From positions 614,192 through 678,191 of the forward strand of contig JBAIAA010000255.1 in assembly GCA_037893245.1 (NCBI GenBank): a DNA stretch of 64,000 bases, read 5' to 3'. This document shows positions 1 to 64,000 of this stretch, one piece after another (the first letter of the stretch is position 1; every line of letters begins with the position of its first letter). This DNA comes from Crossaster papposus (Eukaryota; Echinodermata; Asteroidea; Velatida; Solasteridae). The notes below the pieces were generated by a model that had not been told where the DNA came from, did not search any database, and saw nothing but the letters and a program-made list of their open reading frames with translations. The position numbers and the translations under genes were made by a program.

Positions 1-848
1 CTTTGTCACTCCGAGTCGAGTACCTCATGTCATACCAAAAACTTGTTAGCAGAGCGAGGTTTCGATCCTCGGACCTCTGGGTTATGGGCCCAGCACGCTT
101 CAACTGCGCCACAATGGCTCATGTAAATTTAGAAAATGCAAACAAAATGAAAGCAGACATTCTAAAAACATTCTACAATATTTATTAAATGTGAATAGCA
201 GTGAAGCAAAAATACCTAGTTAGCAAAGCGAGGTTTTGGTCCTCGGACCTCTGGGCTATGGGCCCATCACGCTCCCGCTGCACTACTCTGCGTAACTATT
301 TTTAATGAAAATGAAATCCCTATCAAATACAAAATTATCCTGAGCAGACCGAGGTTGTGATCATCCGAACTCTCGGTTACTGACCAAGAAAGGGTCTACT
401 TTGTCACTCTGAGTCGAGTACTTCAAGTCATACCAAAAACTTATTAGCAGCAGAACGAGGTTTTGATCCTCGGCACTCTGGGTTGTAGGCCCAGCAAGCT
501 TCCACTGCGCCACCATGCCTCATGTAAATTTAGAAAAACAACAAACAAAATAAAAGCAGACATTCTAAAAACATTCTAAAATAATTATTAAATTGAAATA
601 ACAGTGAAGCAAAAATACCCCTTTAGCAGAGCGAGGTTTCGGTCCTCGGGCCTCTGGGTTATGGGCCAATCACGATCCCACTGCACCACTCTGCGTAACT
701 ATTTGTAATGAAAATGAAATCACTTTCAAGGAAATAATTATCCTGAGCAGACCGAGGTTGTGGTCAACCAAACTCTCGGGTACTGACCAAGAAAGTGTCT
801 ACTTTGTCACTCCGAGTCGAGTACCTCATGTCATACCAAAAACTTGTT

Positions 849-912
849 AGCAGAGCGAGGTTTTGATCCTCTGGGTTATGGGCCCAGCACGCTTCAACTG
901 CGCCACTATGCC
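849..912 (-). pseudogene. t1 copy with 7-bp T-arm/variable-region deletion
   Basis: The plus strand runs GATCCTCTGGG at 866-875 where other t1 copies read GATCCTCGGACCTCTGGG, so 7 bp are missing after 870. The segment is 64 bp and has lost the 5' strand of its T stem. The deletion lies between direct CCT repeats, consistent with slippage. This makes the containing unit 794 bp. Confidence 0.85.
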
Positions 913-1631
913 TCATGTAAATTTAGAAAATGCAAACAAAATGAAAGCAGACATTCTAAAAATATTCTACAATATTTATTAAATCTGAATAGCAGTGAAG
1001 CAAAAATACCTAGTTAGCAAAGCGAGGTTTTGGTCCTCGGACCTCTGCGCTATGGGCCCATCACGCTCCCGCTGCACTACTCTGCGTAACTATTTTTAAT
1101 GAAAATGAAATCCCTATCAAATACAAAATTATCCTGAGCAGACCGAGGTTGTGATCATCCGAACTCTCGGTTACTGACCAAGAAAGGGTCTACTTTGTCA
1201 CTCTGAGTCGAGTAGTTCAAGTCATACCAAAAACTTATTAGCAGCAGAACGAGGTTTTGATCCTCGGCACTCTGGGTTATAGGCCCAGCAAGCTTCCACT
1301 GCGCCACCATGCCTCATGTAAATTTAGAAAAACAACAAACAAAATAAAAGCAGACATTCTAAAAACATTCTAAAATAATTATTAAATTTGAATAACAGTG
1401 AAGCAAAAATACCTCTTTAGCAGAGCGAGGTTTCGGTCCTCGGGCCTCTGGGTTATGGGCCCATCACGATCCCACTGCACCACTCTGCGTAACTATTTGT
1501 AATGAAAATGAAATCACTTTCAAGGAAATAATTATCCTGAGCAGACCGAGGTTGTGGTCAACCAAACTCTCGGGTACTGACCAAGAAAGTGTCTACTTTG
1601 TCACTCCGAGTCGAGTACCTCATGTCATACC

Positions 1632-1636
1632 AAAAA
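1632..1636 (-). terminator. Oligo-T (T5) Pol III terminator-like run after t1
   Basis: Five A residues on the plus strand are TTTTT on the minus strand, beginning 5 nt after the discriminator base of t1. RNA polymerase III stops at runs of four or more T, and tRNA genes normally have one within about 20 nt. The same run at the same distance is seen after t1 in essentially all units read. Confidence 0.6.
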
Positions 1637-1641
1637 CTTGT

Positions 1642-1713
1642 TAGCAGAGCGAGGTTTCGATCCTCGGACCTCTGGGTTATGGGCCCAGCACGCTTCAACT
1701 GCGCCACTATGCC
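1642..1713 (-). tRNA. t1: initiator tRNA-Met-like (CAU), probably a pseudogene
   Basis: Minus-strand reading gives a 71-nt body plus discriminator A, the length of a eukaryotic initiator tRNA without CCA. D stem (GCGC/GCGT), anticodon stem (CTGGG/CCCAG) and T stem (CGAGG/CCTCG) are all paired. The anticodon loop is CCCATAA with CAU. The T loop ATCGAAA keeps the initiator form with A54 and A60, and the B-box GGATCGAAACC looks intact. Defects: the invariant G18 of the D loop is T (AGTTGAA instead of AGTGGAA), which also damages the A-box, and acceptor pair 5:68 is a T-C mismatch, with G1-U72 at the end. An oligo-T run follows on the minus strand at 1636-1632. The best-folding copy class, recurring in almost every unit. 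Expression cannot be judged from sequence. Confidence 0.6.
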
Positions 1714-1802
1714 TCATGTAAATTTAGAAAATGCAAACAAAATGAAAGCAGACATTCTAAAAACATTCTACAATATTTATTAAATGTGAATAGCAGTGAA
1801 GC

Positions 1803-1807
1803 AAAAA
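1803..1807 (-). terminator. Oligo-T (T5) Pol III terminator-like run after t2
   Basis: TTTTT on the minus strand, starting 8 nt after the discriminator of t2. It sits in the block A tail (GCAAAAATACC on plus), a sequence also used after t5. Confidence 0.55.
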
Positions 1808-1815
1808 TACCTAGT

Positions 1816-1887
1816 TAGCAAAGCGAGGTTTTGGTCCTCGGACCTCTGGGCTATGGGCCCATCACGCTCCCGCTGCACTACTCTGCG
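1816..1887 (-). pseudogene. t2: initiator tRNA-Met-like segment (CAU)
   Basis: Body 1887-1817 plus A73. The acceptor strands CGCAGAG and CTTTGCT pair at six of seven positions counting one G-U; C1-U72 is mismatched. The D stem is GTGC/GCGT with G-U pairs, and the D loop keeps GG. The anticodon arm is ATGGG-CCCATAG-CCCAG, so pair 27:43 is lost and A38 has become G. The T loop reads ACCAAAA, with U55 to C and G57 to A, which weakens the B-box. Oligo-T follows on the minus strand at 1807-1803. In many units between 12.0 and 47.4 kb this copy carries a 7-bp anticodon-arm duplication. Confidence 0.85.
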
Positions 1888-1937
1888 TAACTATTTTTAA
1901 TGAAAATGAAATCCCTATCAAATACAACATTATCCTG

Positions 1938-2008
1938 AGCAGTCCGAGGTTGTGATCATCCGAACTCTCGGTTACTGACCAAGAAAGGGTCTACTTTGTC
2001 ACTCTGAG
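1938..2008 (-). pseudogene. t3: strongly diverged tRNA-iMet-like segment
   Basis: Minus strand, exactly 71 bp, ungapped against t1. My hand comparison with an initiator tRNA consensus matches about 50 of 71 positions. Matches cluster at CAGAGTG (end of the acceptor and positions 8-9), AGTAGA (D loop), TAACC and AGAG (3' anticodon arm), GATCACAACCTCG (T arm) and CTGCT (3' acceptor). The anticodon is no longer CAU and the T stem is broken. It is best described as an older third member of the half-unit rather than a usable tRNA. Most copies at 49 kb and beyond have CATTAT just left of it where others have AAATTAT, so the minus-strand T4 run is present in some units and absent in others. Confidence 0.75.
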
Positions 2009-2029
2009 TCGAGTACTTCAAGTCATACC

Positions 2030-2034
2030 AAAAA
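2030..2034 (-). terminator. Oligo-T (T5) Pol III terminator-like run after t4
   Basis: TTTTT on the minus strand within CATACCAAAAACTTATT, about 6 nt after the 3' end of t4. It is homologous to the run after t1. The copies at 8445 and 10445 read AAAAAATT (T6). Confidence 0.55.
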
Positions 2035-2040
2035 CTTATT

Positions 2041-2114
2041 AGCAACAGAATGAGGTTTTGATCCTCGGCACTCTGGGTTATAGGCCCAGCAAGCTTCCAC
2101 TGCGCCACCATGCC
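2041..2114 (-). pseudogene. t4: tRNA-iMet-like segment with UAU anticodon
   Basis: Homologous to t1 but 74 bp, because the 3' acceptor strand carries an extra GCA-type triplet (AGCAGCAGAACG on the plus strand where t1 has AGCAGAGCG). The A-box region TGGCGCAGTGGAAGC is intact, unlike t1. The anticodon loop is CCTATAA, so the anticodon reads UAU instead of CAU. The T loop is ATCAAAA (G57 to A, still a purine). The copy in this unit also has AATG for AACG near the 3' end. An oligo-T run follows on the minus strand at 2034-2030. The insertion should disrupt the acceptor stem, so it is a pseudogene. Confidence 0.85.
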
Positions 2115-2205
2115 TCATGTAAATTTAGAAAAACAACAAACAAAATAAAAGCAGACATTCTAAAAACATTCTAAAATAATTATTAAATTTAAATAACAGT
2201 GAAGC

Positions 2206-2210
2206 AAAAA
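2206..2210 (-). terminator. Oligo-T (T5) Pol III terminator-like run after t5
   Basis: TTTTT on the minus strand, 8 nt after the discriminator of t5, in the tail of block C. It has the same context as the run after t2. Confidence 0.55.
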
Positions 2211-2218
2211 TACCTCTT

Positions 2219-2290
2219 TAGCAGAGCGAGGTTTCGGTCCTCGGGCCTCTGGGTTATGGGCCCATCACGATCCCACTGCACCACTCTGCG
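2219..2290 (-). pseudogene. t5: initiator tRNA-Met-like segment (CAU)
   Basis: Body 2290-2220 plus A73. Acceptor strands CGCAGAG and CTCTGCT pair at six of seven positions; only C1-U72 fails, where real eukaryotic initiators have A1-U72. The A-box region is TGGTGCAGTGGG. The anticodon loop is the perfect CCCATAA with CAU, flanked by GGG and CCC. The D stem is weakened by GATC in place of GAGC, and pair 27:43 is lost. The T loop reads ACCGAAA (U55 to C). Oligo-T follows on the minus strand at 2210-2206. By acceptor stem this is the copy nearest to a real initiator tRNA. Confidence 0.85.
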
Positions 2291-2340
2291 TAACTATTTG
2301 TAATGAAAATGAAATCACTTTCAAGGAAATAATTATCCTG

Positions 2341-2411
2341 AGCAGACCGAGGTTGTGGTCAACCAAACTCTCGGGTACTGACCAAGAAAGTGTCTACTTT
2401 GTCACTCCGAG
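2341..2411 (-). pseudogene. t6: strongly diverged tRNA-iMet-like segment
   Basis: Counterpart of t3 in the second half-unit, straddling the D to A block boundary. It is exactly 71 bp with the same end motifs (GAGTG near the 5' end; ACCTCGGTCTGCT at the 3' end) but more substitutions in the T arm (ACCACAA loop). About 46 of 71 positions match the initiator consensus by hand. There is no T4 run immediately downstream on the minus strand. Its identity rests mainly on alignment with t3 and on constant length. Confidence 0.65.
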
Positions 2412-3190
2412 TCGAGTACCTCATGTCATACCAAAAACTTGTTAGCAGAGCGAGGTTTCGATCCTCGGACCTCTGGGTTATGGGCCCAGCACGCTTCAAC
2501 TGCGCCACTATGCCTCATGTAAATTTAGAAAATGCAAACAAAATGAAAGCAGACATTCTAAAAACATTCTACAATATTTATTAAATGTGAATAGCAGTGA
2601 AGCAAAAATACCTAGTTAGCAAAGCGAGGTTTTGGTCCTCGGACCTCTGGGCTATGGGCCCATCACGCTCCCGCTGCACTACTCTGCGTAACTATTTTTA
2701 ATGAAAATGAAATCCCTATCAAATACAAAATTATCCTGAGCAGACCGAGGTTGTGATCATCCGAACTCTCGGTTACTGACCAAGAAAGGGTCTACTTTGT
2801 CACTCTGAGTCGAGTACTTCAAGTCATACCAAAAACTTATTAGCAACAGAACGATGTTTTGATCCTCGGCACTCTGGGTTATAGGCCCAGCAAGCTTCCA
2901 CTGCGCCACCATGCCTCATGTAAATTTAGAAAAACAACAAACAAAATAAAAGCAGACATTCTAAAAACATTCTAAAATAATTATTAAATTTGAATAACAG
3001 TGAAGCAAAAATACTTCTTTAGCAGAGCGAGGTTTCGGTCCTCGGGCCTCTGGGTTATGGGCCCATCACGATCCCACTGCACCACTCTGCGTAACTATTT
3101 GTAATGAAAATGAAATCACTTTCAAGGAAATAATTATCCTGAGCAGACCGAGGTTGTGGTCAACCAAACTCTCGGGTACTGACCAAGAAA

Positions 3191-6100
3191 GTGTCTACTT
3201 TGTCACTCCGAGTCGAGTACCTCATGTCATACCAAAAACTTGTTAGCAGAGCGAGGTTTCGATTCTCGGACCTCTGGGTTATGGGCCCAGCACGCTTCAA
3301 CTGCGCCACTATGCCTCATGTAAATTTAGAAAATGCAAACAAAATGAAAGCAGACATTCTAAAAACATTCTACAATATTTATTAAATGTGAATAGCAGTG
3401 AAGCAAAAATACCTAGTTAGCAAAGCGAGGTTTTGGTCCTCGGACCTTTGGGCTATGGGCCCATCACGCTCCCGCTGCACTACTCTGCGTAACTATTTTT
3501 AATGAAAATGAAATCCCTATCAAATACAAAATTATCCTGAGCAGACCGAGGTTGTGATCATCCGAACTCTCGGTTACTGACCAAGAAAGGGTCTACTTTG
3601 TCACACTGAGTCGAGTACTTCAAGTCATACCAAAAACTTATTAGCAGCAGAACAAGGTTTTGATCCTCGGCACTCTGGGTTATAGGCCCAGCAAGCTTCC
3701 ACTGCGCCACCATGCCTCATGTAAATTTAGAAAAACAACAAACAAAATAAAAGCAGACATTCTAAAAACATTGTAAAATAATTATTAAATTTGAATAACA
3801 GTGAAGCAAAAATACCTCTTTAGCAGAGCGAGGTTTCGGTCCTCGGGCCTCTTGGTTATGGGCCCATCACGATCCCACTGCACCACTCTGCGTAACTATT
3901 TGTAATGAAAATGAAATCACTTTCAAGGAAATAATTATCCTGAGCAGACCGAGGTTGTGGTCAACCAAACTCTCGGTTACTGACCAAGAAAGGGTCTACT
4001 TTGTCACTCTGAGTCGAGTACTTCAAGTCATACCAAAAACTTATTAGCAGCAGAACGAGGTTTTGATCCTCGGCACTCTGGGTTATAGGCCCAGCAAGCT
4101 TCCACTGCGCCACCATGCCTCATGTAAATTTAGAAAAACAACAAACAAAATGAAAGCAGACATTCTAAAAACATTCTACAATATTTATTAAATGTGAATA
4201 GCAGTGAAGCAAAAATACCTAGTTAGCAAAGCGAGGTTTTGGTCCTCGGACCTCTGGGCTATGGGCCCATCACGCTCCCGCTGCACTACTCTGCGTAACT
4301 ATTTTTAATGAAAATGAAATCCCTATCAAATACAACATTATCCTGAGCAGACCGAGGTTGTGATCATCCGAACTCTCGGTTACTGACCAAGAAAGGGTCT
4401 ACTTTGTCACTCTGAGTCGAGTACTTCAAGTCATACCAAAAACTTATTAGCAGCAGAACGAGGTTTTGATCCTCGGCACTCTGGGTTATAGGCCCAGCAA
4501 GCTTCCACTGCGCCACCATGCCTCATGTAAATTTTGAAAAACAACAAACAAAATAAAAGCAGACATTCTAAAAACATTCTAAAATAATTATTAAATTTGA
4601 ATAACAGTGAAGCAAAAATACCTCTTTAGCAGAGCGAGGTTTCGGTCCTCGGGCCTCTGGGTTATGGGCCCATCACGATCCCACTGCACCACTCTGCGTA
4701 ACTATTTGTAATGAAAATGAAATCACTTTCAAGGAAATAATTATCCTGAGCAGACCGAGGTTGTGGTCAACCAAACTCTCGGGTACTGACCAAGAAAGTG
4801 TCTACTTTGTCACTCCGAGTCGAGTACCTCATGTCATACCAAAAACTTGTTAGCAGAGCGAGGTTTCGATCCTCGGACCTCTGGGTTATGGGCCCAGCAC
4901 GCTTCAACTGCGCCACTATGCCTCATGTAAATTTAGAAAATGCAAACAAAATGAAAGCAGACATTCTAAAAACATTCTACAATATTTATTAAATGTGAAT
5001 AGCAGTGAAGCAAAAATACCTAGTTAGCAAAGCGAGGTTTTGGTCCTCGGACCTCTGGGCTATGGGCCCATCACGCTCCCGCTGCACTACTCTGCGTAAC
5101 TATTTTTAATGAAAATGAAATCCCTATCAAATACAACATTATCCTGAGCAGACCGAGGTTGTGATCATCCGAACTCTCGGTTACTGACCAAGAAAGGGTC
5201 TACTTTGTCACACTGAGTCGAGTACTTCAAGTCATACCAAAAACTTATTAGCAGCAGAACAAGGTTTTGATCCTCGGCACTCTGGGTTATAGGCCCAGCA
5301 AGCTTCCACTGCGCCACCATGCCTCATGTAAATTTAGAAAAACAACAAACAAAATAAAAGCAGACATTCTAAAAACATTCTAAAATAATTATTAAATTTG
5401 AATAACAGTGAAGCAAAAATACCTCTTTAGCAGAGCGAGGTTTCGGTCCTCGGGCCTCTTGGTTATGGGCCCATCACGATCCCACTGCACCACTCTGCGT
5501 AACTATTTGTAATGAAAATGAAATCACTTTCAAGGAAATAATTATCCTGAGCAGACCGAGGTTGTGGTCAACCAAACTCTCGGTTACTGACCAAGAAAGG
5601 GTCTACTTTGTCACTCTGAGTCGAGTACTTCAAGTCATACCAAAAACTTATTAGCAGCAGAACGAGGTTTTGATCCTCGGCACTCTGGGTTATAGGCCCA
5701 GCAAGCTTCCACTGCGCCACCATGCCTCATGTAAATTTAGAAAAACAACAAACAAAATGAAAGCAGACATTCTAAAAACATTCTACAATATTTATTAAAT
5801 GTGAATAGCAGTGAAGCAAAAATACCTAGTTAGCAAAGCGAGGTTTTGGTCCTTGGACCTCTGGGCTATGGGCCCATCACGCTCCCGCTGCACTACTCTG
5901 CGTAACTATTTTTAATGAAAATGAAATCCCTATCAAATACAACATTATCCTGAGCAGACCGAGGTTGTGATCATCCGAACTCTCGGTTACTGACCAAGAA
6001 AGGGTCTACTTTGTCACTCTGAGTCGAGTACTTCAAGTCATACCAAAAACTTATTAGCAGCAGAACGAGGTTTTGATCCTCGGCACTCTGGGTTATAGGC

Positions 6101-6404
6101 CCAGCAAGCTTCCACTGCGCCACCATGCCTCATGTAAATTTTGAAAAACAACAAACAAAATAAAAGCAGACATTCTAAAAACATTCTAAAATAATTATTA
6201 AATTTGAATAACAGTGAAGCAAAAATACCTCTTTAGCAGAGCGAGGTTTCGGTCCTCGGGCCTCTGGGTTATGGGCCCATCACGATCCCACTGCACCACT
6301 CTGCGTAACTATTTGTAATGAAAATGAAATCACTTTCAAGGAAATAATTATCCTGAGCAGACCGAGGTTGTGGTCAACCAAACTCTCGGGTACTGACCAA
6401 GAAA
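3191..6404 (-). repeat. 1607-bp higher-order repeat, two copies
   Basis: Copies are 3191-4797 and 4798-6404. Each is an 801-bp A-B-C-D unit followed by an 806-bp unit whose first block is a C/A hybrid. Shared private markers at a constant 1607-bp offset include CACACTGAG in the first block C (near 3602 and 5209), AACAAGG in t4 (near 3652 and 5259) and CTCTTGG in t5 (near 3849 and 5456). Confidence 0.88.
3992..4217 (-). repeat. C/A hybrid block
   Basis: It starts as block C (CTCTGAG, TACTTCAAG, t4 with its triplet insertion) but ends with the block A tail (AAAATGAAAGC, TACAATATTTATTAAATG), followed by block B. The switch lies in the shared AAACAAAAT(A/G)AAAGC stretch near 4145-4155. The same hybrid recurs at 5599-5824, so it was amplified as part of the 1607-bp repeat. 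This looks like unequal exchange or conversion between half-units in the spacer. Confidence 0.8.
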
Positions 6405-7035
6405 GTGTCTACTTTGTCACTCCGAGTCGAGTACCTCATGTCATACCAAAAACTTGTTAGCAGAGCGAGGTTTTGATCCTCGGACCTCTGGGTTATGGGC
6501 CCAGCACGCTTCAACTGCGCCACTATGCCTCATGTAAATTTAGAAAATGCAAACAAAATGAAAGCAGACATTCTAAAAACATTCTACAATATTTATTAAA
6601 TGTGAATAGCAGTGAAGCAAAAATACCTAGTTAGCAAAGCGAGGTTTTGGTCCTCGGACCTCTGGGCTATGGGCCCATCACGCTCCCGCTGCACTACTCT
6701 GCGTAACTATTTTTAATGAAAATGAAATCCCTATCAAATACAACATTATCCTGAGCAGACCGAGGTTGTGATCATCCGGACTCTCGGTTACTGACCAAGA
6801 AAGGGTCTACTTTGTCACTCTGAGTCGAGTACTTCAAGTCATACCAAAAACTTATTAGCGGCAGAACGAGGTTTTGATCCTTGGCACTCTGGGTTATAGG
6901 CCCAGCAAGCTTCCACTGCGCCACCATGCCTCGTGTAAATTTAGAAAAACAACAAACAAAATAAAAGCAGACATTCTAAAAACATTCTAAAATAATTATT
7001 AAATTTGAATAACAGTGAAGCAAAAATACCTCTTT

Positions 7036-7099
7036 AGCAGAGCGAGGTTTCGGTCCTCGGGCCTCTGGGCCCATCACGATCCCACTGCACCACTCTGCG
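7036..7099 (-). pseudogene. t5 copy lacking exactly the anticodon loop
   Basis: The plus strand reads CCTCTGGGCCCATCACG where other t5 copies read CCTCTGGGTTATGGGCCC, a loss of TTATGGG. On the minus strand this removes a 7-nt CCCATAA-type segment, so GGGCCC is left as a bare palindrome with no loop. The flanking GGG repeats make slippage the likely cause. The unit is 794 bp (6405-7198). Confidence 0.88.
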
Positions 7100-7198
7100 T
7101 AACTATTTGTAATGAAAATGAAATCACTTTCAAGGAAATAATTATCCTGAGCAGACCGAGGTTGTGGTCAACCAAACTCTCGGGTACTGACCAAGAAA

Positions 7199-10100
7199 GT
7201 GTCTACTTTGTCACTCCGAGTCGAGTACCTCATGTCATACCAAAAACTTGTTAGCAGAGCGAGGTTTCGATCCTCGGACCTCTGGGTTATGGGCCCAGCA
7301 CGCTTCAACTGCGCCACTATGCCTCATGTAAATTTAGAAAATGCAAACAAAATGAAAGCAGACATTCTAAAAACATTCTACAATATTTATTAAATGTGAA
7401 TAGCAGTGAAGCAAAAATACCTAGTTAGCAAAGCGAGGTTTGGGTCCTCGGACCTCTGGGCTATGGGCCCATCACGCTCCCGCTGCACTACTCTGCGTAA
7501 CTATTTTTAATGAAAATGAAATCCCTATCAAATACAAAATTATCCTGAGCAGACCGAGGTTGTGATCATCCGAACTCTCGGTTAGTGACCAAGAAAGGGT
7601 CTACTTTGTCACTCTGAGTCGAGTACTTCAAGTCATACCAAAAACTTATTAGCAGCAGAACGAGGTTTTGATCCTCGGCACTCTGGGTTATAGGCCCAGC
7701 AAGCTTCCACTGCGCCACCATGCCTCATGTAAATTTAGAAAAACAACAAACAAAATAAAAGCAGACATTCTAAAAACATTCTAAAATAATTATTAAATTT
7801 GAATAACAGTGAAGCAAAAATACCTCTTTAGCAGAGCGAGGTTTCGGTCCTCGGGCCTCTGGGTTATGGGCCCATCACGATCCCACTGCACCACTCTGCG
7901 TAACTATTTGTAATGAAAATAAAATCACTTTCAAGGAAATAATTATCCTGAGCAGACCGAGGTTGTGGTCAACCAAACTCTCGGGTACTGACCAAGAAAG
8001 TGTCTACTTTGTCACTCCGAGTCGAGTACCTCATGTCATATCAAAAACTTGTTAGCAGAGCGAGGTTTCGATCCTCGGACCTCTGAGTTATGGGCCCAGC
8101 ACGCTTCAACTGCGCCACTATGCCTCATGTAAATTTAGAAAATGCAAACAAAATGAAAGCAGACATTCTAAAAACATTCTACAATATTTATTAAATGTGA
8201 ATAGCAGTGAAGCAAAAATACCTAGTTAGCAAAGCGAGGTTTTGGTCCTCGGACCTCTGGGCTATGGGCCCATCACGCTCCCGCTGCACTACTCTGCGTA
8301 ACTATTTTTAATGAAAATGAAATCCCTATCAAATACAAAATTATCCTGAGCAGACCGAGGTTGTGATCATCCGAACTCTCGGTTACTGACCAAAAAAGGG
8401 TCTACTTTGTCACTCTGAGTCGAGTACTTCAAGTCATACCAAAAAATTATTAGCAGCAGAACGAGGTTTTGATCCTTGGCACTCTGGGTTATAGGCCCAG
8501 CAAGCTTCCACTGCGCCACCATGCCTCATGTAAATTTAGAAAAACAACAAACAAAATAAAAGCAGACATTCTAAAAACATTCTAAAATATTTATTAAATG
8601 TGAATAGCAGTGAAGCAAAAATACCTCTTTAGCAGAGCGAGGTTTCGGTCCTCGGGCCTCTGGGTTATGGGCCCATCACGATCCCACTGCACCACTCTGC
8701 GTAACTATTTGTAATGAAAATGAAATCACTTTCAAGGAAATAATTATCCTGAGCAGACCGAGGTTGTGGTCAACCAAACTCTCGGGTACTGACCAAGAAA
8801 GTGTCTACTTTGTCACTCCGAGTCGAGTACCTCATGTCATACCAAAAACTTGTTAGCAGAGCGAGGTTTCGATCCTCGGACCTCTGGGTTATGGGCCCAG
8901 CACGCTTCAACTGCGCCACTATGCCTCATGTAAATTTAGAAAATGCAAACAAAATGAAAGCAGACATTCTAAAAACATTCTACAATATTTATTAAATGTG
9001 AATAGCAGTGAAGCAAAAATACCTAGTTAGCAAAGCGAGGTTTTGGTCCTCGGACCTCTGGGTTATGGGCCCATCACGATCCCACTGCACCACTCTGCGT
9101 AACTATTTGTAATGAAAATGAAATCACTTTCAAGGAAATAATTATCCTGAGCAGACCGAGGTTGTGGTCAACCAAACTCTCGGGTACTGACCAAGAAAGT
9201 GTCTACTTTGTCACTCCGAGTCGAGTACCTCATGTCATACCAAAAACTTGTTAGCAGAGCGAGGTTTCGATCCTCGGACCTCTGGGTTATGGGCCCAGCA
9301 CGCTTCAACTGCGCCACTATGCCTCATGTAAATTTAGAAAATGCAAACAAAATGAAAGCAGACATTCTAAAAACATTCTACAATATTTATTAAATGTGAA
9401 TAGCAGTGAAGCAAAAATACCTAGTTAGCAAAGCGAGGTTTGGGTCCTCGGACCTCTGGGCTATGGGCCCATCACGCTCCCGCTGCACTACTCTGCGTAA
9501 CTATTTTTAATGAAAATGAAATCCCTATCAAATACAAAATTATCCTGAGCAGACCGAGGTTGTGATCATCCGAACTCTCGGTTAGTGACCAAGAAAGGGT
9601 CTACTTTGTCACTCTGAGTCGAGTACTTCAAGTCATACCAAAAACTTATTAGCAGCAGAACGAGGTTTTGATCCTCGGCACTCTGGGTTATAGGCCCAGC
9701 AAGCTTCCACTGCGCCACCATGCCTCATGTAAATTTAGAAAAACAACAAACAAAATAAAAGCAGACATTCTAAAAACATTCTAAAATAATTATTAAATTT
9801 GAATAACAGTGAAGCAAAAATACCTCTTTAGCAGAGCGAGGTTTCGGTCCTCGGGCCTCTGGGTTATGGGCCCATCACGATCCCACTGCACCACTCTGCG
9901 TAACTATTTGTAATGAAAATAAAATCACTTTCAAGGAAATAATTATCCTGAGCAGACCGAGGTTGTGGTCAACCAAACTCTCGGGTACTGACCAAGAAAG
10001 TGTCTACTTTGTCACTCCGAGTCGAGTACCTCATGTCATATCAAAAACTTGTTAGCAGAGCGAGGTTTCGATCCTCGGACCTCTGAGTTATGGGCCCAGC

Positions 10101-11198
10101 ACGCTTCAACTGCGCCACTATGCCTCATGTAAATTTAGAAAATGCAAACAAAATGAAAGCAGACATTCTAAAAACATTCTACAATATTTATTAAATGTGA
10201 ATAGCAGTGAAGCAAAAATACCTAGTTAGCAAAGCGAGGTTTTGGTCCTCGGACCTCTGGGCTATGGGCCCATCACGCTCCCGCTGCACTACTCTGCGTA
10301 ACTATTTTTAATGAAAATGAAATCCCTATCAAATACAAAATTATCCTGAGCAGACCGAGGTTGTGATCATCCGAACTCTCGGTTACTGACCAAAAAAGGG
10401 TCTACTTTGTCACTCTGAGTCGAGTACTTCAAGTCATACCAAAAAATTATTAGCAGCAGAACGAGGTTTTGATCCTTGGCACTCTGGGTTATAGGCCCAG
10501 CAAGCTTCCACTGCGCCACCATGCCTCATGTAAATTTAGAAAAACAACAAACAAAATAAAAGCAGACATTCTAAAAACATTCTAAAATATTTATTAAATG
10601 TGAATAGCAGTGAAGCAAAAATACCTCTTTAGCAGAGCGAGGTTTCGGTCCTCGGGCCTCTGGGTTATGGGCCCATCACGATCCCACTGCACCACTCTGC
10701 GTAACTATTTGTAATGAAAATGAAATCACTTTCAAGGAAATAATTATCCTGAGCAGACCGAGGTTGTGGTCAACCAAACTCTCGGGTACTGACCAAGAAA
10801 GTGTCTACTTTGTCACTCCGAGTCGAGTACCTCATGTCATACCAAAAACTTGTTAGCAGAGCGAGGTTTCGATCCTCGGACCTCTGGGTTATGGGCCCAG
10901 CACGCTTCAACTGCGCCACTATGCCTCATGTAAATTTAGAAAATGCAAACAAAATGAAAGCAGACATTCTAAAAACATTCTACAATATTTATTAAATGTG
11001 AATAGCAGTGAAGCAAAAATACCTAGTTAGCAAAGCGAGGTTTTGGTCCTCGGACCTCTGGGTTATGGGCCCATCACGATCCCACTGCACCACTCTGCGT
11101 AACTATTTGTAATGAAAATAAAATCACTTTCAAGGAAATAATTATCCTGAGCAGACCGAGGTTGTGGTCAACCAAACTCTCGGGTACTGACCAAGAAA
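7199..11198 (-). repeat. 2000-bp higher-order repeat, two copies
   Basis: Copies are 7199-9198 and 9199-11198, each two 801-bp units plus one 398-bp half-unit. Shared markers 2000 bp apart include GGTTTGGGTCC in t2 (near 7438 and 9438), GGTTAGTGACC (near 7581 and 9581), CATATCAAAAAC (near 8037 and 10037), CTCTGAGTTATG in t1 and ACCAAAAAATTATTAG (near 8438 and 10438). One AATGAAAATGAAAT site near 9111 against AATGAAAATAAAAT near 11111 separates the half-units. Confidence 0.92.
9022..9198 (-). repeat. B/D hybrid block with junction inside the tRNA-like segment
   Basis: The left part is block B (CCTAGTTAGCAAAGCG, TTTTGGTCCTCGGAC) and the right part is block D (TTATGGGCCCATCACGATCC). The switch is confined to the 8-bp CCTCTGGG between diagnostic bases, in the minus-strand anticodon arm. 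Equivalent junctions occur in half-units 10801, 15218, 16424, 17630, 21253, 26492, 29307 and 34943, nine in all. Confidence 0.88.
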
Positions 11199-32420: not shown

Positions 32421-32430
32421 TAATGAAAAC
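32421..32430 (-). repeat. 6-bp insertion beside t5 (814-bp unit)
   Basis: The plus strand reads TGCGTAATGAAAACTATTT where other units read TGCGTAACTATTT, adding six bases (TGAAAA-type). The inserted string matches TAATGAAAA found some 15 bp further on, so it looks like a short templated duplication. It recurs near 38057-38066, 5636 bp away, and nowhere else that I found. Confidence 0.85.
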
Positions 32431-48500: not shown

Positions 48501-51500
48501 GCTGCACTACTCTGCGTAACTATTTTTAATGAAAATGGAATCCCTATCAAATACAACATTATCCTGAGCAGACCGAGGTTGTGATCATCCGAACTCTCGG
48601 TTACTGACCGAGAAAGGGTCTACTTTGTCACTCTGAGTCGAGTACTTCAAGTCATACCAAAAACTTATTAGCAGCAGAACGAGGTTTTGATCCTCGGCAC
48701 TCTGGGTTATAGGCCCAGCAAGCTTCCACTGCGCCACCATGCCTCATGTAAATTTAGAAAAACAACAAACAAAATAAAAGCAGACATTCTAAAAACATTC
48801 TAAAATAATTATTATATTTGAATAACAGTGAAGCAAAAATACCTCTTTAGCAGAGCGAGGTTTCGGTCCTCGGGCCTCTGGGTTATGGGCCCATCACGAT
48901 CCCACTGCACCACTCTGCGTAACTATTTGTAATGAAAATAAAATCACTTTCAAGGAAATAATTATCCTGAGCAGACCGAGGTTGTGGTCAACCAAACTCT
49001 CGGGTACTGACAAGAAAGTGTCTACTTTGTCACTACGAGTCGAGTACCGCATGTCATACCAAAAACTTGTTAGCAGAGCGAGGTTTCGATCCTCGGACCT
49101 CTGGGTTATGGGCCCAGCACGCTTCAACTGCGCCACTATGCCTCATGTAAATTTAGAAAATGCAAACAAAATGAAAGCAGACATTCTAAAAACATTCTAC
49201 AATATTTATTAAATGTGAATAGCAGTGAAGCAAAAATACCTAGTTAGCAAAGCGAGGTTTTGGTCCTCGGACCTCTGGGCTATGGGCCCATCACGCTCCC
49301 GCTGCACTACTCTGCGTAACTATTTTTAATGAAAATGAAATCCCTATCAAATACAAAATTATCCTGAGCAGACCGAGGTTGTGATCATCCGAACTCTCGG
49401 GTACTTACCAAGAAAGGGTCTACTTTGTCACTTTGAGTCGAGTACTTCAAGTCATACCAAAAACTTATTAGCAGCAGAACGAGGTTTTGATCCTCGGCAC
49501 TCTGGGTTATAGCAGAGCGAGGTTTCGATCCTCGGACCTCTGGGTTATGGGCCCAGCACGCTTCAACTGCGCCACTATGCCTCATGTAAATTTAGAAAAT
49601 GCAAACAAAATGAAAGCAGACATTCTAAAAACATTCTACAATATTTATTAAATGTGAATAGCAGTGAAGCAAAAATACCTAGTTAGCAAAGCGAGGTTTT
49701 GGTCCTCGGACCTCTGGGCTATGGGCCCATCACGCTCCCGCTGCACTACTCTGCGTAACTATTTTTAATGAAAATGAAATCCCCATCAAATACAACATTA
49801 TCCTGAGCAGACCGAGGTTGTGATCATCCGAACTCTCGGTTACTGACCAAGAAAGGGTCTACTTTGTCACTCTGAGTCGAGTACTTCAAGTCATACCAAA
49901 AACTTATTAGCAGCAGAACAAGGTTTTGATCCTCGGCACTCTGGGTTATAGGCCCAGCAAGCTTCCACTGCGCCACCATGCCTCATGTAAATTTAGAAAA
50001 ACAACAAACAAAATAAAAGCAGACATTTTAAAAACATTCTAAAATAATTATTAAATGTGAATAGCAGTGAAGCAAAAATACCTCTTTAGCAGAGCGAGGT
50101 TTCGGTCCTCGGGCCTCTGGGTTATGGGACCATCACGATCCCACTGCACCACTCTGCGTAACTATTTGTAATGAAAATGAAATCACTTTCAAGGAAATAA
50201 TTATCCTGAGCAGACCGAGGTTGTGGTCAACCAAACTCTCGGGTACTGACCAAGAAAGTGTCTACTTTGTCACTCCGAGTCGAGTACCTCATGTCATACC
50301 AAAAACTTGTTAGCAGAGCGAGGTTTCGATCCTCGGACCTCTGGGTTATGGGCCCAGCACGCTTCAACTGCGCCACTATGCCTCATGTAAATTTAGAAAA
50401 TGCAAACAAAATGAAAGCAGACATTCTAAAAACATTCTACAATATTTATTAAATGTGAATAGCAGTGAAGCAAAAATACCTAGTTAGCAAAGCGAGGTTT
50501 TGGTCCTCGGACCTCTGGGCTATGGGCCCATCACGCTCCCGCTGCACTACTCTGCGTAACTATTTTTAATGAAAATGAAATCCCTATCAAATACAAAATT
50601 ATCCTGAGCAGACCGAGGTTGTGATCATCCGAACTCTCGGTTACTGACCAAGAAAGGGTCTACTTTGTCACTCTGAGTCGAGTACTTCAAGTCATACCAA
50701 AAACTTATTAGCAGCAGAACGAGGTTTTGATCCTCGGCACTCTGGGTTATAGGCCCAGCAAGCTTCCACTGCGCCACCATGCCTCATGTAAATTTAGAAA
50801 AACAACAAACAAAATAAAAGCAGACATTTTAAAAACATTCTAAAATATTTATTAAATGTGAATAGCAGTGAAGCAAAAATACCTCTTTAGCAGAGCGAGG
50901 TTTCGGTCCTCGGGCCTCTGGGTTATGGGCCCATCACGATCCCACTGCACCACTCTGCGTAACTATTTGTAATGAAAATGAAATCACTTTCAAGGAAATA
51001 ATTATCCTGAGCAGACCGAGGTTGTGGACAACCAAACTCTCGGGTACTGACCAAGAAAGTGTCTACTTTGTCACTCCGAGTCGAGTACCTCATGTCATAC
51101 CAAAAACTTGTTAGCAGAGCGAGGTTTCGATCCTCGGACCTCTGGGTTATGGGCCCAGCACGCTTCAACTGCGCCACTATGCCTCATGTAAATTTAGAAA
51201 ATGCAAACAAAATAAAAGCAGACATTTTAAAAACATTCTAAAATATTTATTAAATGTGAATAGCAGTGAAGCAAAAATACCTCTTTAGCAGAGCGAGGTT
51301 TCGGTCCTCGGGCCTCTGGGTTATGGGCCCATCACGATCCCACTGCACCACTCTGCGTAACTATTTGTAATGAAAATGAAATCACTTTCAAGGAAATAAT
51401 TATCCTGAGCAGACCGAGGTTGTGGTCAACCAAACTCTCGGGTACTGACCAAGAAAGTGTCTACTTTGTCACTCCGAGTCGAGTACCTCATGTCATACCA

Positions 51501-53059: not shown

Positions 53060-53511
53060 GTGTCTACTTTGTCACTCCGAGTCGAGTACCTCATGTCATA
53101 CCAAAAACTTGTTAGCAGAGCGAGGTTTCGATCCTCGGACCTCTGGGTTATGGGCCCAGCACGCTTCAACTGCGCCACTATGCCTCATGTAAATTTAGAA
53201 AATGCAAACAAAATGAAAGCAGACATTCTAAAAACATTCTACAATATTTATTAAATGTGAATAGCAGTGAAGCAAAAATACCTAGTTAGCAAAGCGAGGT
53301 TTTGGTCCTCGGACCTCTGGGCTATGGGCCCATCACGCTCCCGCTGCACTACTCTGCGTAACTATTTTTAATGAAAATGAAATCCCTATCAAATACAAAA
53401 TTATCCTGAGCAGACCGAGGTTGTGATCATCCGAACTCTCGGGTACTGACCAAGAAAGGGTCTACTTTGTCACTTTGAGTCGAGTACTTCAAGTCATACC
53501 AAAAACTTATT

Positions 53512-53623
53512 AGCAGCAGAACGAGGTTTTGATCCTCGGCACTCTGGGTTATAGCAGAGCGAGGTTTCGATCCTCGGACCTCTGGGTTATGGGCCCAGCA
53601 CGCTTCAACTGCGCCACTATGCC
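53512..53623 (-). pseudogene. Fused tRNA-like dimer, second copy
   Basis: The same TTATAGCAGAG junction lies 4042 bp from the first. It sits in the 53060 unit of the 6485-bp super-repeat. Matching breakpoints show this is a duplicate of one event. Confidence 0.88.
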
Positions 53624-56600: not shown

Positions 56601-57154
56601 GCGTAACTATTTGTAATGAAAATGAAATCACTTTCAAGGAAATAATTATCCTGAGCAGACCGAGGTTGTGGTCAACCAAACTCTCGGGTACTGACCAAGA
56701 AAGTGTCTACTTTGTCACTCCGAGTCGAGTACCTCATGTCATACCAAAAACTTGTTAGCAGAGCGAGGTTTCGATCCTCGGACCTCTGGGTTATGGGCCC
56801 AGCACGCTTCAACTGCGCCACTATGCCTCATGTAAATTTAGAAAATGCAAACAAAATGAAAGCAGACATTCTAAAAACATTCTACAATATTTATTAAATG
56901 TGAATAGCAGTGAAGCAAAAATACCTAGTTAGCAAAGCGAGGTTTTGGTCCTCGGACCTCTGGGCTATGGGCCCATCACGCTCCCGCTGCACTACTCTGC
57001 GTAACTATTTTTAATGAAAATGAAATCCCTATCAAATACAAAATTATCCTGAGCAGACCGAGGTTGTGATCATCCGAACTCTCGGGTACTGACCAAGAAA
57101 GGGTCTACTTTGTCACTTTGAGTCGAGTACTTCAAGTCATACCAAAAACTTATT

Positions 57155-57266
57155 AGCAGCAGAACGAGGTTTTGATCCTCGGCACTCTGGGTTATAGCAG
57201 AGCGAGGTTTCGATCCTCGGACCTCTGGGTTATGGGCCCAGCACGCTTCAACTGCGCCACTATGCC
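57155..57266 (-). pseudogene. Fused tRNA-like dimer, third copy
   Basis: Same junction, 3643 bp after the second copy, in the 56703 unit. Confidence 0.88.
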
Positions 57267-59996
57267 TCATGTAAATTTAGAAAATGCAAACAAAATGAAA
57301 GCAGACATTCTAAAAACATTCTACAATATTTATTAAATGTGAATAGCAGTGAAGCAAAAATACCTAGTTAGCAAAGCGAGGTTTTGGTCCTCGGACCTCT
57401 GGGCTATGGGCCCATCACGCTCCCGCTGCACTACTCTGCGTAACTATTTTTAATGAAAATGAAATCCCCATCAAATACAACATTATCCTGAGCAGACCGA
57501 GGTTGTGATCATCCGAACTCTCGGTTACTGACCAAGAAAGGGTCTACTTTGTCACTCTGAGTCGAGTACTTCAAGTCATACCAAAAACTTATTAGCAGCA
57601 GAACGAGGTTTTGATCCTCGGCACTCTGGGTTATAGGCCCAGCAAGCTTCCACTGCGCCACCATGCCTCATGTAAATTTAGAAAAACAATAAACAAAATA
57701 AAAGCAGACATTCTAAAAACATTCTAAAATAATTATTAAATTTGAATAACAGTGAAGCAAAAATACCTCTTTAGCAGAGCGAGGTTTCGGTCCTCGGGCC
57801 TCTGGGTTATGGGCCCATCACGATCCCACTGCACCACTCTGCGTAACTATTTGTAATGAAAATGAAATCACTTTCAAGGAAATAATTATCCTGAGCAGAC
57901 CGAGGTTGTGGTCAACCAAACTCTCGGGTACTGACCAAGAAAGTGTCTACTTTGTCACTCCGAGTCGAGTACCTCATGTCATACCAAAAACTTGTTAGCA
58001 GAGCGAGGTTTCGATCCTCGGACCTCTGGGTTATGGGCCCAGCACGCTTCAACTGCGCCACTATGCCTCATGTAAATTTAGAAAATGCAAACAAAATGAA
58101 AGCAGACATTCTAAAAACATTCTACAATATTTATTAAATGTGAATAGCAGTGAAGCAAAAATACCTAGTTAGCAAAGCGAGGTTTTGGTCCTCGGACCTC
58201 TGGGCTATGGGCCCATCACGCTCCCGCTGCACTACTCTGCGTAACTATTTTTAATGAAAATGAAATCCCTATCAAATACAACATTATCCTGAGCAGACCG
58301 AGGTTGTGATCATCCGAACTCTCGGTTACTGACCGAGAAAGGGTCTACTTTGTCACTCTGAGTCGAGTACTTCAAGTCATACCAAAAACTTATTAGCAGC
58401 AGAACGAGGTTTTGATCCTCGGCACTCTGGGTTATAGGCCCAGCAAGCTTCCACTGCGCCACCATGCCTCATGTAAATTTAGAAAAACAACAAACAAAAT
58501 AAAAGCAGACATTCTAAAAACATTCTAAAATAATTATTATATTTGAATAACAGTGAAGCAAAAATACCTCTTTAGCAGAGCGAGGTTTCGGTCCTCGGGC
58601 CTCTGGGTTATGGGCCCATCACGATCCCACTGCACCACTCTGCGTAACTATTTGTAATGAAAATGAAATCACTTTCAAGGAAATAATTATCCTGAGCAGA
58701 CCGAGGTTGTGGTCAACCAAATTCTCGGGTACTGACCAAGAAAGTGTCTACTTTGTCACTCCGAGTCGAGTACCTCATGTCATACCAAAAACTTGTTAGC
58801 AGAGCGAGGTTTCGATCCTCGGACCTCTAGGTTATGGGCCCAGCACGCTTCAACTGCGCCACTATGCCTCATGTAAATTTAGAAAATGCAAACAAAATGA
58901 AAGCAGACATTCTAAAAACATTCTACAATATTTATTAAATGTGAATAGCAGTGAAGCAAAAATACCTAGTTAGCAAAGCGAGGTTTTGGTCCTCGGACCT
59001 CTGGGCTATGGGCCCATCACGCTCCCGCTGCACTACTCTGCGTAACTATTTTTAATGAAAATGGAATCCCTATCAAATACAACATTATCCTGAGCAGACC
59101 GAGGTTGTGATCATCCGAACTCTCGGTTACTGACCGAGAAAGGGTCTACTTTGTCACTCTGAGTCGAGTACTTCAAGTCATACCAAAAACTTATTAGCAG
59201 CAGAACGAGGTTTTGATCCTCGGCACTCTGGGTTATAGGCCCAGCAAGCTTCCACTGCGCCACCATGCCTCATGTAAATTTAGAAAAACAACAAACAAAA
59301 TAAAAGCAGACATTCTAAAAACATTCTAAAATAATTATTATATTTGAATAACAGTGAAGCAAAAATACCTCTTTAGCAGAGCGAGGTTTCGGTCCTCGGG
59401 CCTCTGGGTTATGGGCCCATCACGATCCCACTGCACCACTCTGCGTAACTATTTGTAATGAAAATGAAATCACTTTCAAGGAAATAATTATCCTGAGCAG
59501 ACCGAGGTTGTGGTCAACCAAACTCTCGGGTACTGACCAAGAAAGTGTCTACTTTGTCACTCCGAGTCGAGTACCTCATGTCATACCAAAAACTTGTTAG
59601 CAGAGCGAGGTTTCGATCCTCGGACCTCTGGGTTATGGGCCCAGCACGCTTCAACTGCGCCACTATGCCTCATGTAAATTTAGAAAATGCAAACAAAATG
59701 AAAGCAGACATTCTAAAAACATTCTACAATATTTATTAAATGTGAATAGCAGTGAAGCAAAAATACCTAGTTAGCAAAGCGAGGTTTTGGTCCTCGGACC
59801 TCTGGGCTATGGGCCCATCACGCTCCCGCTGCACTACTCTGCGTAACTATTTTTAATGAAAATGAAATCCCTATCAAATACAAAATTATCCTGAGCAGAC
59901 CGAGGTTGTGATCATCCGAACTCTCGGGTACTGACCAAGAAAGGGTCTACTTTGTCACTTTGAGTCGAGTACTTCAAGTCATACCAAAAACTTATT

Positions 59997-60108
59997 AGCA
60001 GCAGAACGAGGTTTTGATCCTCGGCACTCTGGGTTATAGCAGAGCGAGGTTTCGATCCTCGGACCTCTGGGTTATGGGCCCAGCACGCTTCAACTGCGCC
60101 ACTATGCC
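59997..60108 (-). pseudogene. Fused tRNA-like dimer, fourth copy
   Basis: Same junction, 2842 bp after the third and 6485 bp after the second, in the 59545 unit. Confidence 0.88.
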
Positions 60109-63100
60109 TCATGTAAATTTAGAAAATGCAAACAAAATGAAAGCAGACATTCTAAAAACATTCTACAATATTTATTAAATGTGAATAGCAGTGAAGCAAA
60201 AATACCTAGTTAGCAAAGCGAGGTTTTGGTCCTCGGACCTCTGGGCTATGGGCCCATCACGCTCCCGCTGCACTACTCTGCGTAACTATTTTTAATGAAA
60301 ATGAAATCCCCATCAAATACAACATTATCCTGAGCAGACCGAGGTTGTGATCATCCGAACTCTCGGTTACTGACCAAGAAAGGGTCTACTTTGTCACTCT
60401 GAGTCGAGTACTTCAAGTCATACCAAAAACTTATTAGCAGCAGAACGAGGTTTTGATCCTCGGCACTCTGGGTTATAGGCCCAGCAAGCTTCCACTGCGC
60501 CACCATGCCTCATGTAAATTTAGAAAAACAATAAACAAAATAAAAGCAGACATTCTAAAAACATTCTAAAATAATTATTAAATTTGAATAACAGTGAAGC
60601 AAAAATACCTCTTTAGCAGAGCGAGGTTTCGGTCCTCGGGCCTCTGGGTTATGGGCCCATCACGATCCCACTGCACCACTCTGCGTAACTATTTGTAATG
60701 AAAATGAAATCACTTTCAAGGAAATAATTATCCTGAGCAGACCGAGGTTGTGGTCAACCAAACTCTCGGGTACTGACCAAGAAAGTGTCTACTTTGTCAC
60801 TCCGAGTCGAGTACCTCATGTCATACCAAAAACTTGTTAGCAGAGCGAGGTTTCGATCCTCGGACCTCTGGGTTATGGGCCCAGCACGCTTCAACTGCGC
60901 CACTATGCCTCATGTAAATTTAGAAAATGCAAACAAAATGAAAGCAGACATTCTAAAAACATTCTACAATATTTATTAAATGTGAATAGCAGTAAAGCAA
61001 AAATACCTAGTTAGCAAAGCGAGGTTTTGGTCCTCGGACCTCTGGGCTATGGGCCCATCACGCTCCCGCTGCACTACTCTGCGTAACTATTTTTAATGAA
61101 AATGAAATCCCCATCAAATACAACATTATCCTGAGCAGACCGAGGTTGTGATCATCCGAACTCTCGGTTACTGACCAAGAAAGGGTCTACTTTGTCACTC
61201 TGAGTCGAGTACTTCAAGTCATACCAAAAACTTATTAGCAGCAGAACGAGGTTTTGATCCTCGGCACTCTGGGTTATAGGCCCAGCAAGCTTCCACTGCG
61301 CCACCATGCCTCATGTAAATTTAGAAAAACAATAAACAAAATAAAAGCAGACATTCTAAAAACATTCTAAAATAATTATTAAATTTGAATAACAGTGAAG
61401 CAAAAATACCTCTTTAGCAGAGCGAGGTTTCGGTCCTCGGGCCTCTGGGTTATGGGCCCATCACGATCCCACTGCACCACTCTGCGTAACTATTTGTAAT
61501 GAAAATGAAATCACTTTCAAGGAAATAATTATCCTGAGCAGACCGAGGTTGTGGTCAACCAAACTCTCGGGTACTGACCAAGAAAGTGTCTACTTTGTCA
61601 CTCCGAGTCGAGTACCTCATGTCATACCAAAAACTTGTTAGCAGAGCGAGGTTTCGATCCTCGGACCTCTGGGTTATGGGCCCAGCACGCTTCAACTGCG
61701 CCACTATGCCTCATGTAAATTTAGAAAATGCAAACAAAATGAAAGCAGACATTCTAAAAACATTCTACAATATTTATTAAATGTGAATAGCAGTGAAGCA
61801 AAAATACCTAGTTAGCAAAGCGAGGTTTTGGTCCTCGGACCTCTGGGCTATGGGCCCATCACGCTCCCGCTGCACTACTCTGCGTAACTATTTTTAATGA
61901 AAATGAAATCCCTATCAAATACAACATTATCCTGAGCAGACCGAGGTTGTGATCATCCGAACTCTCGGTTACTGACCGAGAAAGGGTCTACTTTGTCACT
62001 CTGAGTCGAGTACTTCAAGTCATACCAAAAACTTATTAGCAGCAGAACGAGGTTTTGATCCTCGGCACTCTGGGTTATAGGCCCAGCAAGCTTCCACTGC
62101 GCCACCATGCCTCATGTAAATTTAGAAAAACAACAAACAAAATAAAAGCAGACATTCTAAAAACATTCTAAAATAATTATTATATTTGAATAACAGTGAA
62201 GCAAAAATACCTCTTTAGCAGAGCGAGGTTTCGGTCCTCGGGCCTCTGGGTTATGGGCCCATCACGATCCCACTGCACCACTCTGCGTAACTATTTGTAA
62301 TGAAAATGAAATCACTTTCAAGGAAATAATTATCCTGAGCAGACCGAGGTTGTGGTCAACCAAATTCTCGGGTACTGACCAAGAAAGTGTCTACTTTGTC
62401 ACTCCGAGTCGAGTACCTCATGTCATACCAAAAACTTGTTAGCAGAGCGAGGTTTCGATCCTCGGACCTCTAGGTTATGGGCCCAGCACGCTTCAACTGC
62501 GCCACTATGCCTCATGTAAATTTAGAAAATGCAAACAAAATGAAAGCAGACATTCTAAAAACATTCTACAATATTTATTAAATGTGAATAGCAGTGAAGC
62601 AAAAATACCTAGTTAGCAAAGCGAGGTTTTGGTCCTCGGACCTCTGGGCTATGGGCCCATCACGCTCCCGCTGCACTACTCTGCGTAACTATTTTTAATG
62701 AAAATGGAATCCCTATCAAATACAACATTATCCTGAGCAGACCGAGGTTGTGATCATCCGAACTCTCGGTTACTGACCGAGAAAGGGTCTACTTTGTCAC
62801 TCTGAGTCGAGTACTTCAAGTCATACCAAAAACTTATTAGCAGCAGAACGAGGTTTTGATCCTCGGCACTCTGGGTTATAGGCCCAGCAAGCTTCCACTG
62901 CGCCACCATGCCTCATGTAAATTTAGAAAAACAACAAACAAAATAAAAGCAGACATTCTAAAAACATTCTAAAATAATTATTATATTTGAATAACAGTGA
63001 AGCAAAAATACCTCTTTAGCAGAGCGAGGTTTCGGTCCTCGGGCCTCTGGGTTATGGGCCCATCACGATCCCACTGCACCACTCTGCGTAACTATTTGTA

Positions 63101-64000
63101 ATGAAAATGAAATCACTTTCAAGGAAATAATTATCCTGAGCAGACCGAGGTTGTGGTCAACCAAACTCTCGGGTACTGACCAAGAAAGTGTCTACTTTGT
63201 CACTCCGAGTCGAGTACCTCATGTCATACCAAAAACTTGTTAGCAGAGCGAGGTTTCGATCCTCGGACCTCTGGGTTATGGGCCCAGCACGCTTCAACTG
63301 CGCCACTATGCCTCATGTAAATTTAGAAAATGCAAACAAAATGAAAGCAGACATTCTAAAAACATTCTACAATATTTATTAAATGTGAATAGCAGTGAAG
63401 CAAAAATACCTAGTTAGCAAAGCGAGGTTTTGGTCCTCGGACCTCTGGGCTATGGGCCCATCACGCTCCCGCTGCACTACTCTGCGTAACTATTTTTAAT
63501 GAAAATGAAATCCCTATCAAATACAACATTATCCTGAGCAGACCGAGGTTGTGATCATCCGAACTCTCGGTTACTGACCGAGAAAGGGTCTACTTTGTCA
63601 CTCTGAGTCGAGTACTTCAAGTCATACCAAAAATTTATTAGCAGCAGAACGAGGTTTTGATCCTCGGCACTCTGGGTTATAGGCCCAGCAAGCTTCCACT
63701 GCGCCACCATGCCTCATGTAAATTTAGAAAAACAACAAACAAAATAAAAGCAGACATTCTAAAAACATTCTAAAATAATTATTATATTTGAATAACAGTG
63801 AAGCAAAAATACCTCTTTAGCAGAGCGAGGTTTCGGTCCTCGGGCCTCTGGGTTATGGGCCCATCACGATCCCACTGCACCACTCTGCGTAACTATTTGT
63901 AATGAAAATGAAATCACTTTCAAGGAAATAATTATCCTGAGCAGACCGAGGTTGTGGTCAACCAAACTCTCGGGTACTGACCAAGAAAGTGTCTACTTTG

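Follow-up and report, generated by a model that had tools for sequence, protein, structure and literature searches.

The window considered here is the whole 64,000-nucleotide stretch of Crossaster papposus DNA that was analysed, which forms the terminal 64 kb of contig C255 (JBAIAA010000255.1) in a genome assembly of 1.02 Gb and 1841 contigs. From end to end (1..64000, minus strand) it is a single tandem array whose ~801-bp higher-order unit comprises two ~400-bp half-units, and which contains 479 modules derived from the initiator transfer RNA (tRNA). Tandem Repeats Finder described it as a 398-bp unit repeated 159 times, and the spacings between anchors, mostly 403, 398 and 405, give a dimer of about 801 bp. 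This unit is formed by half-units of ~398 and ~403 bp in mostly regular alternation, accompanied by 405-bp, 439-bp and other variants, and the 398, 403 and 405 classes are 98–99% identical to their own consensus. Full-length matches elsewhere to a representative unit (1613..2413, minus strand) are 97–100% identical, and upstream of position 1 the array also fills the adjoining 5 kb. The sequence is satellite DNA, being a homogeneous, non-coding, head-to-tail array over the 64 kb of the window and recurring on at least six other contigs. Read on the tRNA strand, each half-unit runs from module C, 121 bases to module B, 174–176 bases to module A and 103–106 bases to the next C, with 34,541 of the 64,000 window bases lying in modules; the half-unit is a trimer C-B-A in which A and B are recent relics and C is an old one.

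The modules were located by ungapped comparison with the intact initiator tRNA of the same genome, which gave 506 peaks of at least 42/72; 27 modules are split by a 7-bp duplication and each was counted once, so that 479 remain, assigned by a rough flank-and-score rule to types A (157), B (158) and C (164). All 479 are on the minus strand, the top plus-strand match being 31/72, and the top match in 50 Markov-shuffled copies reached 36/72, against 42–69 for the modules. The first-pass annotation had counted six initiator-tRNA-like segments per 801 bp, all on the minus strand and about 480 in number, and 479 modules in 79.9 units (6.0 per unit) agree with this; with six tRNA-derived segments in a tandem unit, the array corresponds in structure to the tRNA-derived satellites of amphibians. 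Rfam gave 203 matches over the gathering score, the 150 listed being all RF00005 on the minus strand, and ARAGORN made 51 tRNA-Met calls, all of them minus.

Within the representative unit the best preserved module is A1 (1642..1713, minus strand like the others), which matches the intact gene at 69/72, scores 49.8 bits in Rfam and has lost nucleotide A1, the pair 5:68 and one G of the D-loop. It is followed by B1 (1816..1887; 62/72; Rfam 32.1 bits) and by C1 (1937..2008), the oldest relic, with 49/72 in this copy and 50 in the consensus, an anticodon loop TCAGTAA and no Rfam match. The second half-unit contains A2 (2043..2114), which has 60/72 in this copy and 62 in the consensus and scores 27.1 bits in Rfam here and 35.5 in many other copies, B2 (2219..2290; 65/72; Rfam 32.4 bits) and C2 (2340..2411; 45/72). 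The consensus modules differ from the intact gene at 3 (A1), 10 (A2), 10 (B1), 7 (B2), 22 (C1) and 27 (C2) of 72 positions; A and B hence match it at 62–69/72 and C at 45–50/72.

The anticodon arm GGGCCCATAACCC, proposed at first pass as the signature of an initiator parent, is present in 148 exact copies in the window but not in every module, the loops of A2 and C being different: A2 has CCTATAA (anticodon TAT), and C has TCAGTAA or TCAGTAC (AGT). For the initiator hallmark of three G-C pairs in the anticodon stem together with a CAT anticodon, the picture is thus mixed: among the 452 unsplit modules, the loop CCCATAA occurs in 86 A modules, 81 B modules and 2 C modules, and CCCATAG in 49 B modules. 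The 7-bp duplication lies in the anticodon arm (GGGCCCATAGCCCATAGCCC) of the 27 split modules, which are B1 copies found from ~12278 to 46887, only in mid-window, and it is a marker of the local spread of a variant.

The parent gene and the isotype of the modules

A covariance model was built from seven initiator tRNA sequences, all from outside the window, and was run with filters off on one 8-kb stretch of the array; such a search had been recommended at first pass, and it returned 60 modules, the expected number, with no others up to E = 1. Thirty-nine A/B modules score 64–94 bits and one module at the edge of the stretch 32.9 bits, and the 20 C modules score 14–26.5 bits, eight of them at E of 8e-6 to 8e-5 and twelve at E 0.02. 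With default filters, the same model found in 21 other genome pieces (26 kb) four tRNAs of other kinds at 37–45.5 bits and, beyond these, no match up to E = 1. The A and B modules, with the exception of the edge one, are therefore well above these non-initiator tRNAs of the genome and above background, the level at which the initial proposal was to fall; the C modules are weak on this measure but regularly placed.

The ancestry of module C was evaluated by comparison with 500 shuffles, in which its likeness to the initiator tRNA has z of 10 (C1) and 8.8 (C2), and its likeness to the Lys, Thr, Cys and Asn tRNAs of the same genome z of at most 1.8; a derivation of C from another isotype is ruled out against these four. 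Because C resembles the initiator and none of the four others, the six modules descend from one isotype, as judged from sequence, although A2 and C no longer carry a CAT anticodon. The initial view of a specific initiator parent, with three modules of a single isotype per half-unit, is in this way borne out by A and B as well as by C.

An exact 72/72 initiator gene is located on contig C885, with flanks unlike the satellite, a long T-run just downstream and an Rfam score of 58.7 bits; three further exact genes, ~0.85 kb apart, are found a few kb off, making four full-length exact genes in all. These three further genes are identical, their 100-base upstream flanks match at 87–91 positions and their 60-base downstream flanks at 48–54. 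Identical genes between differing flanks form the pattern that selection on a working gene would give, in contrast to the window. On the same contig, ~0.9 kb from the exact gene, there is also a decayed initiator relic (L063:573-644, minus strand; 28.3 bits).

Decay of the window modules

The A1:U72 pair is a mark of initiator tRNA. It is kept in none of the 452 unsplit modules, and none of them has a complete cloverleaf with all 21 stem pairs, the best value being 20/21, in 65 modules. Across the six consensus modules, whose relatedness makes them non-independent, the internal promoter boxes for RNA polymerase III (Pol III) have 24 substitutions in 132 positions versus 55 in 300 elsewhere (Fisher p = 1) and hence give no signal of selection. 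In addition, modules and spacers are equally diverged between the two half-units, with 195 of 216 module positions and 163 of 182 spacer positions identical when gaps are excluded. Runs of at least four T within 20 nt downstream follow 153 of 157 A, all 158 B and 58 of 164 C modules, compared with 69% of equal-size spacer windows, and those after A and B might be remnants of former terminators.

Since no unsplit module retains A1:U72 or all stem pairs and the boxes have diverged as much as other positions, the window is read as a decayed satellite, presumably devoid of present function, and not as a gene array, a candidate rejected for lack of any module with a complete initiator cloverleaf.

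Related arrays and their genomic surroundings

A 40-base tag from A1 occurs, with at most one mismatch, at 8524 places in the genome, 86 of which are in the window, and its backwards control at none; by simple proportion from these tag counts, the satellite would amount to ~6 Mb, with about 47,000 modules. The unit or the tag is present on at least seven contigs (C13, C60, C79, C146, C255, C784 and C833). C255 itself was sampled at four places, and the sample at 560 kb belongs to an array of this kind that runs in the opposite orientation. The exact initiator 72-mer occurs 1281 times in the genome and never in the window, with the 100 listed matches all on C146, and the intact 5' half, with at most two mismatches, occurs at 5393 places and again never in the window; a pattern of half the gene, in which an upstream base was altered, matched at 84 places (36 on C146, 44 on C262 and 4 on C885). 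Eleven 900-base samples were taken from C146 between 3.0 and 6.9 Mb; four consist of tRNA satellite, five of a 217-bp satellite, one of an 86-bp tandem repeat and one of short repeats. Five C146 samples before 2.77 Mb contain no initiator modules.

The C146 arrays that hold intact matches, here called live-type, mostly keep the C-B-A order near 4.34, 5.44 and 6.00 Mb, following the pattern C-121-B-174-(hybrid-174)n-A-103-C with n from 0 to 3. The hybrid modules, which often intervene between B and A with a 174-bp spacing, combine the 5' flank of A with the 3' flank of B, module types having been set there by simple flank motifs that left some modules undecided. In the window the spacings fit n = 0 throughout and reveal no B/A hybrids; a chimeric A1/A2 module is present at 49473..49548 (minus strand) in a 439-bp unit and again at 53515, 57158 and 60000, the four 439-bp units being identical, and it looks like a product of unequal exchange within module A. 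The C146 hybrids are what exchange between B and A modules would leave, so that the modules are inferred to be the homology used in unequal exchange; both kinds of junction suggest, at the level of sequence, that array length changes by such exchange inside the tRNA segments. A midpoint-rooted tree of 61 units (at most four per locus, 8 of the 62 distinct window types, support values not read) separates the sampled window-type units, which come from C146, C255, C784 and C833 and form two half-unit groups, from the sampled live-type units, which are all C146 units. Given this split, the dead satellite most likely had one origin and then spread; the same decay may be at an earlier stage in the live-type arrays.

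Other sequences accompany these arrays. The 217-bp satellite is interleaved with tRNA satellite arrays on C146 at 3.9–5.2 Mb (L073–L077) and has no initiator-model match. A mobile-element-like insertion of ~900 bp (L051:3763-4668, C146:2768263-2769168) starts with GTGAG repeats within the satellite, and the 12-base satellite word TACTGACCAAGA is present on both of its sides, like a target-site repeat. Another isotype is also arranged in tandem: tRNA-Lys(TTT) genes, most at 71–79 bits, are found at C479:24360-485726 (L001, L004–L008), at 572–577-bp spacing where read; the best-scored matches extend over ~460 kb, and a BLAST comparison of one 3-kb locus with 900 window bases gave no match at E up to 1. 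A smaller tRNA-Lys array on C424 has 654–776-bp units. The 5.3-Mb contig C8 (L002, L054) contains a tight cluster of Lys and Asn tRNAs and a stop-free open frame of 682 aa with a COX1 domain, and might represent a bacterium, either an associate of the animal or a contaminant.

The assembly also includes a 16.3-kb mitochondrial contig in which COX1 (Pfam) has 13 in-frame TGA codons and reads open in codes 5 and 9, code 9 (echinoderm) fitting the expected conserved residues better by eye. The 16S RNA (Rfam) lies on the strand opposite COX1, and the genes named by eye are ND2, ND1 (minus), COX1, ND4L, COX2, ATP6, COX3, ND3, ND4, ND5, ND6 (minus) and CYTB, a layout that we take to be that of starfish.

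Origin and significance of the satellite

The satellite very probably arose from an initiator tRNA gene through a trimeric block, with subsequent decay in the window lineage. An initiator gene would have given rise to a block of three modules, composed of a gene A and the relics B and C, whose tandem amplification would have generated large arrays; in some of these, many A copies would have remained exact tRNA genes, while in the window lineage A would have decayed too and the block doubled to the 801-bp unit. This dead version would then have spread over several contigs as an ordinary satellite, its modules acting as short homology stretches at which unequal exchange lengthens or shortens the array.

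Several points weigh against this origin. The box test is weak, the six consensus modules being related, and the excess of T-runs after A and B could denote competence for transcription. The likeness of the C885 genes could stem from gene conversion rather than selection, and the tree is midpoint rooted and taken without reading support values. Moreover, module A of the live-type arrays has a diversity (pi) of 0.10 versus 0.043 for C and 0.027 for the spacer in 57 A-C pairs with exactly 103-base spacing (other spacings dropped), a non-random sample from seven loci picked around intact matches, in which the high value of A is partly due to chimeric copies counted as A. Its variability in these 57 modules is hence no lower than that of C or of the spacer, and constraint on live-type A is not supported.

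Among the other explanations, a working gene array that supplies extra initiator tRNA, to the oocyte for instance, would agree with the CAT anticodon and T-loop kept by A1, with the T-runs after A and B and with the 1281 exact copies elsewhere in the genome; it is very improbable for the window, where the initiator pair and the full set of stem pairs are absent from all unsplit modules and modules are no better conserved than spacers, but may still hold for arrays with exact genes. Alternatively, a short interspersed nuclear element (SINE) with an initiator-tRNA head could have been tandemised into a satellite, as in the squamate SINE-derived satellites. Heads of tRNA are common in SINEs, and conversion of SINEs to satellites is described (PMC10702118). 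This derivation is nevertheless quite unlikely, as each module is a whole tRNA, with three per half-unit at fixed spacing, the related arrays contain exact tRNA genes, and no dispersed SINE copy turned up in genome searches that gave best matches only, none of them aimed at a SINE.

The satellite might otherwise be kept since its Pol III boxes bind TFIIIC/Pol III, producing transcripts, boundaries or centromere-like chromatin. In favor of such a role, the consensus A and B modules keep most box positions (0–3 changes of 11 each), the arrays lie among the 217-bp satellite on C146, and a human tRNA tandem repeat has been implicated as a boundary (PMC4041453); on the other hand the boxes are not preferentially conserved, and the role is considered unlikely. 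A similarly doubtful extension is that the dead modules, Pol III-like and numbering thousands, are still bound or transcribed, and that exact and dead arrays would be paired to set the supply of initiator tRNA or to organise germ-line heterochromatin. An assembly artefact or a chance similarity is scarcely credible: the array does reach the contig end, where assemblies often fail, but the chance maximum is below the module scores, the unit is present with distinct variants on several contigs and inside one array there is an insert that resembles a mobile element and is flanked by what looks like a target-site repeat.

The preferred origin, by decay of an amplified initiator gene, can be compared with known systems. 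The newt PolIII/TAN (Hirt) tandem repeat derives originally from tRNA-Glu and is transcribed in vitro (PMC10702118); it is likewise a tandem repeat of a few hundred bp with a tRNA-derived segment, but the account mentions one tRNA-related segment per ~360-nt unit, and here the isotype is the initiator, with three segments per half-unit. Xenopus OAX/satellite I, Rana/polIII and Hydromantes Hy/polIII (PMC10702118) are also abundant tandem repeats with a tRNA-like part; in OAX, Rana/polIII and Hy/polIII this part is described as a segment or is doubtful, whereas here 479 modules trace to a gene in the same genome. The squamate satellites share an origin from a Pol III unit but contain SINE parts (PMC10702118), whereas here each module is a whole tRNA and related arrays of tRNA genes exist.

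Tandem or clustered tRNA genes are reported in Entamoeba, zebrafish, Nematostella, with more than 17000 tRNA genes and pseudogenes, 89% of them clustered, and human 1q23.3 (PMC2888827, PMC4041453), and resemble the present case in the amplification of genes and pseudogenes and in changes of copy number. However, the human repeat includes several isotypes and the zebrafish and Nematostella pairs are mostly mixed, unlike the single isotype, decayed modules and homogeneous unit of this satellite. In echinoderms, the available part of a sea cucumber survey, with 1032 tRNA genes, 90 of them Met, does not use the words 'tandem' or 'cluster' (PMC8580430), and 6779 tRNAs are reported for the starfish Asterias amurensis (PMC11090083). 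No description of a satellite built solely from initiator modules, three to each half-unit, was found in the openly licensed literature, as judged by titles and the start of abstracts; tRNA-like satellites are known in amphibians, and the all-initiator trimeric satellite is regarded as a new form of this known type.

A single genome thus displays several stages from gene to satellite, i.e. a few clustered exact genes, large arrays that combine exact genes with relics, and decayed sequence extrapolated to megabases, so that the path by which a tRNA gene becomes a satellite can be followed, with the module hybrids as a record of exchange. In such genomes tRNA counts may be inflated by satellites, a circumstance that might also concern the number reported for Asterias amurensis (PMC11090083); if the 1281 exact copies are used, C. 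papposus would have an extreme dosage of initiator genes.

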